Shown one piece after another: positions 41,696 through 43,853 of a stretch of 64,000 bases of DNA. The notes below the pieces were generated by a model. That model had not been told where the DNA came from and made no database searches. It saw only the letters and a program-made list of their open reading frames with translations. The stretch comes from an uncultured Flavobacteriales bacterium. GTDB taxonomy: Bacteria; Bacteroidota; Bacteroidia; Flavobacteriales; Schleiferiaceae. The position numbers were made by a program, and so were the translations under genes. The DNA is taken from NCBI GenBank assembly GCA_913055685.1, contig CAJXKC010000001.1:1178001-1242000 (forward strand). Reading direction: 5' to 3'. Each line of letters starts with the position of its first letter. Position 1 is the stretch's first letter.

Positions 41696-41744
41696 TAAAA
41701 AAAAGACCCCGGAGGCCAACGAAATTGTTAGTCCCCGGGGTCTT
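41696..41744 (-). terminator. Terminator of the sulfur-handling cluster
   Basis: A perfect 10-bp stem AAGACCCCGG/CCGGGGTCTT (41703-41712/41735-41744) with a 22-base loop. On the minus strand it is followed by a run of eight T (two of them in the stem), 17 bases after the DsrE-like gene. Confidence 0.85.
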
Positions 41745-41761
41745 CTGAAACCCACAATTTG

Positions 41762-42274
41762 CTAGATGAACAGCAAGTGTGTGTTTTCGCCTTCCGCGCG
41801 AGTGTAGAAGTCGCCAACGGTAATTACGTCAGAAATTTCATCTACAAGGTCTTCGCGTTTTAGGTGGAACATGTCTACGGCTAGTTTACAGGCCCATAGC
41901 TTACATCCACTGGCTTCAAGGATTTCAATAAACTCACCCACAGGAGGGATATCGAGTTTTTCCATTTCCTTTTTCATCATATTGGTCGCAAAGGCTTCCA
42001 TTCCTGGGAGTCCGCCCAATAAAGTAGGGATGTGCATCGCTGGGTTTCCTACAGTAGCTACGTGCAAGTGTTCCAGTTTCTTTTTCTGCACCGCTTCTAA
42101 TCCGAAGAAAGTGAAAAAGATTTCGGCTTCAATTCCTTCCATTCGAGCGCCGTTGGCAAGAATGAATGCGGCGTATACATTATCGATGGTGGCCTTAGAA
42201 AGGATCAACATCATTTTTTTAACCTTGGCATCCTTTTTAGGAGTTTCGGTCATTGTTTTGGCTTCTGCTTCCAT
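41762..42274 (-). CDS. DsrE2/DrsH-like sulfur-relay protein
   Basis: A 170-residue protein of the DsrE/DsrF/DrsH-like family. Seen: KMMLILSKATIDNVYAAFILANGA (strand-helix nucleotide-like fold), EIFFTFFGLE, GLPGMEAFATNMMKKEMEK, and a cysteine pair Cys124 and Cys129 in ASGCKLWACKLAVDM. In DsrE2 proteins the Cys in this position carries persulfide. Unlike many DsrE2 proteins it shows no strong transmembrane helix. It is the third gene of an SQR-like/TusE-like/DsrE-like operon (12-base gap), so it should pass or accept sulfane sulfur. Direction of flow is inference. Confidence 0.85.
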   Translation of the reverse strand: MEAEAKTMTETPKKDAKVKKMMLILSKATIDNVYAAFILANGARMEGIEAEIFFTFFGLEAVQKKKLEHLHVATVGNPAMHIPTLLGGLPGMEAFATNMMKKEMEKLDIPPVGEFIEILEASGCKLWACKLAVDMFHLKREDLVDEISDVITVGDFYTRAEGENTHLLFI

Positions 42275-42286
42275 GATTAAGTAGGA

Positions 42287-42595
42287 TTAAATACAACTTG
42301 CAGGCTTGGGGATACCAGCAATTCGACTGGCTTTTTTCAAAGGTCCGCCTGGGAATAATGCATAAAAACCTTTGATATCTACTACACCACTCTTTCCTAC
42401 TTTACGAATAGAAAGAGGTACTTCATTCTTATACTGTTCTTGAAGGTATTCAATCACAGGCATGTGGTCATCAGTTAGCTGAATGCCTTCCTCTTGAGCG
42501 ATAGCTTCAGCAACTTCGCGGCTCCACTGATTAAGATCAGTAAGATAGCCTTCATCGTTTACGGCAATGTTTTTGCCGGCAATTGTGGTTTCCAT
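42287..42595 (-). CDS. TusE/DsrC/DsvC-family sulfur-relay protein
   Basis: A 102-residue protein. The N-terminal segment IAVNDEGYLTDLNQWSREVA and the C-terminal flexible arm AGIPKPASCI are diagnostic. The penultimate Cys101 (CysA) is present, but the second cysteine 11 residues before it is Ser90, so it belongs to the TusE-like type with one active Cys, not the dissimilatory DsrC type with two. It lies between the SQR-like gene (10-base gap) and the DsrE-like gene. Confidence 0.9.
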   Translation of the reverse strand: METTIAGKNIAVNDEGYLTDLNQWSREVAEAIAQEEGIQLTDDHMPVIEYLQEQYKNEVPLSIRKVGKSGVVDIKGFYALFPGGPLKKASRIAGIPKPASCI

Positions 42596-42605
42596 GGTTT
42601 CTGTA

Positions 42606-43853
42606 TTAAGCGTTTATTTCTTCTTCTAAATTCTTACCGGCCTCAGACATTGTAGGGCTTACAAAGGGAATATGGCGACCGGTGATAAGCATATTCCAAT
42701 AGATCCATTTAAAAGCCATCTTACCCATGTGGTTCATCCGGCTTTCTTTAAGGAGATTTAGAGGACCAACACCTGGGAAGGGGAAGGTTCCGGTTACAGG
42801 TTGATGATTGTAGTTGAAATCGATTAAAAGGGCTTTACCGTGACCAGTTTCAATGAAACAGTTGGCGTGGCCGTCGAATTCATCCTTTAATTTTTTACCA
42901 TCAATAAAACGGAGGACGTTTTCAAGTAAGATCTCGCCTTCGAAGTGGGCCACACTTCCCGCTTTAGAAGCTGGGATATTGGTAGCATCTCCGATTACGA
43001 AAATGTTCTCTTTTACTTTAGACTGCAGCGTAGCCTTATCGGTAGGGATAAAGTTTAAGTCGTCGCCAAAACCGCTGCGTTCTACATAATCGGCGCCTTT
43101 ATTGGTGGGGATGGCTACCAATAGGTCGTAGTCTACCTCTTGACCTTCGTAGTCGGTAATTTTCTTGGCTTCGCCATCAACACTCATAATATTGAAGTTA
43201 GGTACTACATTAATACCCTTATCTTCCAATAGGTGTCCGAGGTGCGCAGAGGCAATCGGTTTGGTAAAGGCTCCGTCCATCGGGGTTACAAAAGAGATCT
43301 TAACCTTATCGCGGATGCCTCTTTGCTCGAAGTAAGCATCGGCAAGGAAGGTGAACTCTAAGGGAGCAACCGGACATTTAATAGGCATCTCCGCGATGTT
43401 AACCACCAGGTGACCACCATCGAAATTTTCGAGGGCACGGTGTAATTTAACGGCACCATCTAAGGTGTAGAAATCGAATACAGATTGATGCCAATGAGGT
43501 CCTTGCATACCGTCGATTTCCTCGGGTGCAATATCGGTTCCAGTGGCAATAACTAGTACATCGTAGTTTAATACTTCACCGTCTTCCAGGTAAACCCGAT
43601 CATTGTCTTTATCGACTTTTAAAATGGGTTTCTGAATGAAATTGGCGCGTTCCGGAATAAATTTCTCGATTGGCTTTACAATATCCTCTTCGGTATAGGT
43701 ACCAAATGGAATGAAAAGATATCCGGGTTGATAGTGGTGAATTCTTCTTTGATCAACGATGGTGATATTCCATTCGTCGTTCAGTCTTTTAGCGAGATGA
43801 TTGCTCATCATGGTGCCGGCGGTTCCAGCACCTAAAATCACTACATTTTTCAT
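42606..43853 (-). CDS. Sulfide:quinone oxidoreductase-like flavoprotein
   Basis: A 415-residue FAD/NAD-type disulfide oxidoreductase. The FAD site VVILGAGTAGTMMSNHLAKR is at 4-23, the second FAD motif NIFVIGDATNIPASKAGS at 283-300. Only two cysteines lie in SQR-like positions: Cys160 in PIKCPVAPLEF and Cys332 in HANCFIETGHG; these match the two redox Cys shared by all SQR types. The C-terminal 60 residues contain amphipathic/aromatic stretches (FKWIYWNMLI) suited to membrane attachment. Predicted role: oxidise sulfide to persulfide/polysulfide and reduce quinone. A flavocytochrome-like or unrelated NADH dehydrogenase role is less likely. Confidence 0.83.
   Translation of the reverse strand: MKNVVILGAGTAGTMMSNHLAKRLNDEWNITIVDQRRIHHYQPGYLFIPFGTYTEEDIVKPIEKFIPERANFIQKPILKVDKDNDRVYLEDGEVLNYDVLVIATGTDIAPEEIDGMQGPHWHQSVFDFYTLDGAVKLHRALENFDGGHLVVNIAEMPIKCPVAPLEFTFLADAYFEQRGIRDKVKISFVTPMDGAFTKPIASAHLGHLLEDKGINVVPNFNIMSVDGEAKKITDYEGQEVDYDLLVAIPTNKGADYVERSGFGDDLNFIPTDKATLQSKVKENIFVIGDATNIPASKAGSVAHFEGEILLENVLRFIDGKKLKDEFDGHANCFIETGHGKALLIDFNYNHQPVTGTFPFPGVGPLNLLKESRMNHMGKMAFKWIYWNMLITGRHIPFVSPTMSEAGKNLEEEINA

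Follow-up and report, generated by a model that had tools for sequence, protein, structure and literature searches.

Introduction

In the Dsr relay, sulfur passes from DsrEFH to DsrC and on to DsrAB, with DsrE-type and DsrC-family proteins as carriers and a penultimate cysteine as persulfide acceptor, and the Tus relay of Escherichia coli (TusA–TusBCD–TusE–MnmA) includes a TusE with a single such cysteine. The cst operon of Staphylococcus aureus encodes a sulfide:quinone oxidoreductase (SQR) together with CstA/CstB and TauE. Excerpts of one study support a transfer of sulfur by DsrEFH to the next-to-last residue of DsrC, a cysteine, in A. vinosum, and report that neither DsrEFH nor DsrC acquires sulfur from small thiols in vitro (PMC3397948). 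The DUF1641 protein ForE of Bacillus subtilis is described, in an excerpt of another, as required for menaquinone coupling of formate dehydrogenase (PMC8808070). In cells that lack DsrAB, the sulfur acceptor of SQR is often unclear.

Here we analyze a window, meaning the whole stretch of DNA under study (64,000 nucleotides, from an uncultured Flavobacteriales bacterium), in which an SQR gene is followed by genes for a TusE/DsrC-family carrier and a DsrE2-like protein. The flavoprotein resembles known SQRs (NCBIfam family NF049943; human SQR) in its FAD fold, its two catalytic-type cysteines and a score well over cut-off, but differs from them in that TusE and DsrE2-like genes follow in each of the 75 assessable loci, and from the selenoprotein members in having cysteine at the HxxU position in every aligned row. 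With the Dsr relay the unit shares DsrE-type and DsrC-family carriers and the penultimate acceptor cysteine, but here a dsrA match and the second DsrC cysteine are missing and an SQR is the fixed partner. Unlike the Tus relay, with which it has the TusE-type single cysteine in common, it is linked to an SQR, and the window's genome has no TusA match. A TauE gene beside a metallo-beta-lactamase/double-rhodanese gene in the same genome recalls the cst operon, but this pair lies elsewhere and is untied to the SQR. The ForCE formate dehydrogenase offers a further parallel, a DUF1641 protein encoded beside a quinone-reducing oxidoreductase, although its catalytic subunit is different and the window's genome is without a DUF1641 match. 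We propose that the unit probably oxidizes toxic hydrogen sulfide and hands the sulfur to two small carriers, a genetically fixed and testable acceptor pair shared by many uncultured lineages and by some that have been cultured.

The SQR–TusE–DsrE2-like unit

Three minus-strand open reading frames, separated by gaps of 10 and 12 bases, form one unit. The first encodes an SQR flavoprotein of 415 amino acids (42606..43853, minus strand) with Cys160 in the motif KCPVAP and Cys332 in HANC; the second a TusE/DsrC-family sulfur carrier of 102 amino acids (42287..42595, minus strand) with the penultimate Cys101 only; and the third a soluble DsrE2-like protein (PF13686) of 170 amino acids (41762..42274, minus strand) with a conserved Cys129. 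Directly after the third gene lies an intrinsic terminator (41697..41746, minus strand), a GC-rich hairpin running into a U8 tract, with a minimum free energy of -32.3, where shuffled sequences average -18.2 (z -4.4; 0 of 200 shuffles equally stable). The arrangement given in a preliminary description of the locus, three minus-strand genes with these gaps and a strong terminator, is thereby confirmed, as are the cysteines it listed (160 and 332; 101 only; 124 and 129). The genes flanking the unit encode a ChaN-like protein and a product with a weak outer-membrane barrel match that stays below its cut-off.

Is the flavoprotein an SQR? It scores 641 bits (cut-off 525) against NF049943, the NCBIfam model for type III SQR of the selenoprotein subtype, and no other model exceeds 64 bits. 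Among solved structures, the closest in sequence is human SQR, in which Cys160 aligns with the cysteine of a KC pair and Cys332 with that of an SC pair, residues that are catalytic in the human enzyme. The NCBIfam name of the family is type III and the nearest solved structure that of human SQR, a type II enzyme. An AlphaFold model built from 31 aligned sequences (pLDDT 90.9) yields TM-scores of 0.87/0.89 to human SQR, compared with 0.76 to flavocytochrome c (FCSD) and 0.72 to NDH-2, which places the predicted fold with SQR rather than with NDH-2. Both cysteines are present in 81 of 81 SQR rows. Cys332 occupies the position of the selenocysteine in the HxxU motif that an excerpt of PMC13188914 gives for selenoprotein members of the type III family; with cysteine there in all 81 rows, no selenocysteine form of the unit's SQR was seen, and the 40 over-cut-off SQR matches of our Bacteroidota genome search are free of in-frame stops. 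By family score, both redox cysteines and modeled fold, gene 1 is an SQR, as the preliminary description had it, and sulfide:quinone activity is predicted. We know of no activity for any member of this SQR unit.

Gene 2 reaches 86 bits against TIGR03342 (cut-off 53.5) and 100 bits against PF04358 and has the penultimate cysteine, which makes it a member of the TusE/DsrC/DsvC family; against the TusE equivalog model of E. coli type, NF008562, it attains 68.3 of the 191 bits required. Cys101 is present in all 78 scored rows (a 79th, from locus L012, is interrupted by an in-frame stop and was not scored), and position 90 is Ala in 42 of these, Ser in 19, Thr in 17 and never Cys. Gene 2 is therefore not a DsrC in the strict sense, for which the second cysteine of the C-terminal arm is missing (Ser90 in the window), and the earlier reading of a DsrC-family protein with the penultimate cysteine only is borne out.

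Gene 3 scores over cut-off with 118 bits against PF13686 (cut-off 25) and also with 26 bits against PF02635, and carries the conserved cysteine of the DsrE/DsrF-like superfamily, to which we assign it: Cys129 aligns with a cysteine of 2qs7 and 3pnx and is invariant across the 75 scored rows, a further row having a gap. It is not a DsrE2 in the strict sense, given 103 bits against the DsrE2 equivalog NF047629 (cut-off 210) and a highest 19-residue hydropathy of 1.44, which indicates no likely membrane helix; two transmembrane helices are named as a DsrE2 feature in an excerpt of PMC12998232. The reading of Cys124 and Cys129 as a functional pair was rejected, because no more than 9 of the 76 rows, counting the window, have cysteine at position 124. 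What had been described as a DsrE2-like protein with a cysteine pair thus stands as a DsrE-type carrier and falls as a pair and as a strict DsrE2. With Cys101 and Cys129 invariant, Cys124 poorly kept and position 90 never cysteine, each carrier has one conserved thiol.

Conservation of the unit

When genome contigs were scanned with the window's SQR, 197 relatives were found, and the best 80 (54–84% identity) were used; these are its closest matches and do not sample SQRs at large. With a phmmer E-value of up to 1e-3 on open frames as the criterion, SQR is followed by TusE and then by the DsrE2-like gene, on the same strand and in the same order, in 75 of the 80 loci. The other five leave their contig soon after the SQR (L033 after 2 bases, L034 after 570, L045 after 987, L067 after 1013 and L076 after 1299), with TusE still visible in three of them. 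The 75 loci fall into 15 named phyla, with 6 loci lacking a phylum name; most are metagenome-assembled genomes (MAGs), single placements of which may be wrong. The unit is hence not peculiar to a flavobacterium, and its gene order is conserved in related genomes, one of the points on which the preliminary description had offered to be refuted. Counted among the 75 are a flavobacterial MAG with one in-frame stop each in SQR and TusE (L012:4980-6600) and a locus with a broken DsrE2-like frame (L082), defects that we attribute to sequencing errors or to decay within individual MAGs.

In a quick SQR tree (LG+G4), phylum labels change 17 times, with a possible minimum of 14 and a shuffled mean of 39. 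Since the phyla mostly cohere in this tree, the unit looks ancient, with some transfers between lineages. Between loci, pairwise distances are correlated across the three proteins (Spearman 0.53–0.59 over 75 rows, window included and L012 omitted, uncorrected for the species tree). A search of plasmids matched 295 records, all below 60% identity, and none of these entered the comparison. The parts of the unit belong to known families; the fixed unit, the tie of Bacteroidota TusE to it and the DUF1641–TusE fusion set out below are apparently undescribed, although a description may exist: among the open papers listed, titles and abstract beginnings contain no SQR–TusE–DsrE2 unit, most subscription papers and all preprints being outside that scope.

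TusE, SQR and MnmA in Bacteroidota

In 148 Bacteroidota genomes (in the GTDB sense), drawn evenly, TusE occurs in 38 and a unit-type SQR over cut-off in 40, every TusE genome being among those with the SQR. The two SQR genomes without TusE belong to family f16 (30 genomes), which we take to be green sulfur bacteria because both members tested have dsrA; the family has its own DsrC, whose gene adjoins dsrA in one f16 stretch examined. Setting f16 aside leaves 118 genomes, 13 with TusE and 13 with an over-cut-off SQR, the two sets being identical (Fisher p 1.4e-17, uncorrected for shared ancestry, the 13 genomes representing nine families). By coordinates, TusE adjoins SQR in all 13, directly or with about 740–840 bases between, and a DsrE2-like gene follows in each. 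A second, orphan TusE is present in one of them (G005, stretch L086). TusE is absent both from 20 further non-f16 genomes with weaker SQR matches (206–365 bits) and from four with another DsrE2 (159–189 bits).

MnmA, by comparison, is found in 148 of 148 genomes (147 over cut-off), and 105 non-f16 genomes have MnmA without TusE. TusE outside f16 thus tracks this SQR and not tRNA thiolation. The unit explains why TusE is present in some Bacteroidota whose MnmA needs none, and a TusE/DsrC match in a genome of this kind should not be taken for a gene of tRNA thiolation or sulfate reduction. Membership in the Dsr sulfur oxidation pathway was likewise rejected: the dsrA search found no match in the window's genome and none over cut-off in the 13 genomes with the unit, two of which have weak matches (19.5–44.5 bits), compared with over-cut-off matches in 2 of 2 f16 genomes.

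DUF1641 and the TusE fusion

In 26 of the 75 loci a distance of more than 300 bases separates SQR from TusE, and many loci carry a DUF1641 gene between the two. When the gene after SQR was scanned in five loci, four passed PF07849 (DUF1641) and that of L041 had no match; two more such genes passed in a further scan. Of 92 loci searched with single DUF1641-type sequences (the 80 and 12 further stretches), 26 contained relatives, and the Pfam model detected DUF1641 in 3 of the 13 Bacteroidota genomes with the unit. In both Myxococcota loci a single open reading frame after SQR comprises DUF1641, an Ala/Pro-rich link and a DsrC domain (L068:6221-7186, 35.9 bits for DUF1641 and 99.4 for DsrC; L077:3985-4968, 25.0 and 71.0 bits). 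The two fusion proteins, each from a Myxococcota MAG, are 41% identical to each other. Taken with the role of ForE, the fusion suggests by analogy that TusE belongs physically to an SQR complex, near its quinone side. Because the Pfam model finds no DUF1641 in the window's genome, the argument extends to that genome by homology only.

Discussion

Our analyses revealed a fixed pairing of a sulfide oxidase with two carrier proteins, which suggests a putative sulfur hand-over step. We consider it likely that the SQR is inherited jointly with its sulfur acceptors, that persulfide passes to TusE and the DsrE2-like protein and that electrons pass to quinone, giving sulfide detoxification with energy gain. 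In the model that we propose, a cytoplasm-facing, membrane-associated SQR would oxidize sulfide at its FAD with Cys160 and Cys332, pass a pair of electrons to quinone (by analogy, menaquinone) and keep the sulfur as a persulfide, which would then move to protein thiols, Cys101 of TusE and Cys129 of the DsrE2-like protein, instead of ending solely on free thiols or as elemental sulfur. In this scheme TusE would serve as a mobile arm, in DUF1641 lineages held at a quinone-side subunit of SQR and sometimes fused to it. Transfer could run from SQR through the DsrE2-like protein to TusE or from SQR to TusE, and the DUF1641–TusE fusion favors TusE meeting SQR first. Since DsrEFH and DsrC refuse sulfur from small thiols, direct contact with SQR may be needed for the hand-over. 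A bolder version, in which an SQR complex across phyla uses a DUF1641-docked or fused DsrC/TusE arm to take sulfane sulfur directly from the active site, without DsrAB and without releasing free polysulfide or small persulfide, we hold tentatively, at a little under an even chance.

On which side of the membrane would the SQR act? Excerpts of the literature differ, the type III SQR of cable bacteria being drawn with a periplasmic active site in one paper (PMC13293266) and predicted as cytoplasmic in another (PMC13047784). A periplasmic active site would bar direct hand-over to cytoplasmic carriers; the fixed linkage to two proteins without membrane segments argues for a cytoplasm-facing orientation here.

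It is conceivable that the carriers serve other ends. The preliminary description named sulfur donation, with tRNA thiolation as an example. In such a route, SQR persulfide would pass through TusE to MnmA for 2-thiouridine and replace cysteine desulfurase, TusA and TusBCD. E. coli TusE contacts MnmA directly, according to an excerpt of PMC3397948, and the window's genome combines MnmA with the lack of a TusA match, but MnmA is independent of TusE in these genomes, where outside f16 every TusE occurs with this SQR, and gene 2 falls far below the TusE equivalog score; we regard such a supply route as very unlikely. The chemistry might also run in reverse or concern a different substrate, with the flavoprotein reducing polysulfide or persulfide, or acting on another compound, and the carriers donating the sulfur. 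The family is defined here from sequence, which leaves room for this, and some loci come from Aminicenantota and Chloroflexota, phyla rich in anaerobes. The invariance of both SQR cysteines, a fold closer to human SQR than to FCSD or NDH-2, and DUF1641, which points to quinone, nevertheless make this reading improbable.

The single conserved cysteine of each carrier would suit a sensor, and TusE and the DsrE2-like protein could report sulfur load or stabilize SQR with no net sulfur flux. Regulators of MerR, ArsR and PocR type do occur near the unit in several lineages: MerR-type genes, whose products have several cysteines in the C-terminal part, lie near or directly upstream in L041, L046, L049, L053, L060 and L064, ArsR-type genes in L054, L059, L073 and L074, and PocR-type genes in L063, L066 and L072. 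These DNA-binding regulators are separate genes, however, none is among the two genes flanking the window's unit, and both carriers come from sulfur-transfer families, so that we think a sensing role unlikely.

Where would the sulfur go in a unit that oxidizes sulfide and loads two carriers? In the window's genome, general cytoplasmic handling of sulfane sulfur, by rhodaneses and by a persulfide-dioxygenase-like fusion protein encoded beside a TauE exporter gene, appears the most plausible end point. The absence of a rhodanese claimed earlier is true of the operon and not of the genome, which has eight rhodanese matches, including two within a single metallo-beta-lactamase fusion protein. This protein of 470 amino acids, a metallo-beta-lactamase with two rhodanese domains, is encoded directly after the TauE gene (G000:C2:118237-119646; stretches L099 and L104) and is related to 3tp9 and 3r2u; it reaches no NCBIfam cut-off for persulfide dioxygenase (Blh model, 63 against 625 bits). 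As a dedicated partner of the unit it was rejected, such fusions occurring in 9 of the 13 genomes with the unit and in 83 of the 105 others (Fisher p 0.48), and it is plausible as a possible end point. In the 13 genomes the unit's SQR is mostly remote from the metallo-beta-lactamase/rhodanese gene, the distance in G134 being about 5 kb; a weaker and probably different SQR lies within about 5 kb of such a gene in G118, G119, G085 and G135.

Neighboring genes in other loci offer further observations. In G005, of the same phylum as the window's genome, genes for SoxY, SoxZ, a cytochrome-like protein (judged by eye) and an FCSD flavoprotein come directly after the unit (L087:2-2306), neighbors that fit a role in sulfur oxidation. 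A FadL/OmpP1 outer-membrane channel gene (PF03349), not found near the window's unit, is a neighbor of the unit in 11 of 92 loci (L017, L035, L039, L050, L055, L057, L058, L064, L090, L091 and L096), on the same strand in 10; the 92 include 3 loci that lack the unit. It is within 3 kb in four of the 13 genomes (G047, G065, G103 and G134, three of which are represented by L090, L091 and L096), where 0.045 would be expected by chance in this post hoc comparison, and such a channel might move hydrophobic sulfur.
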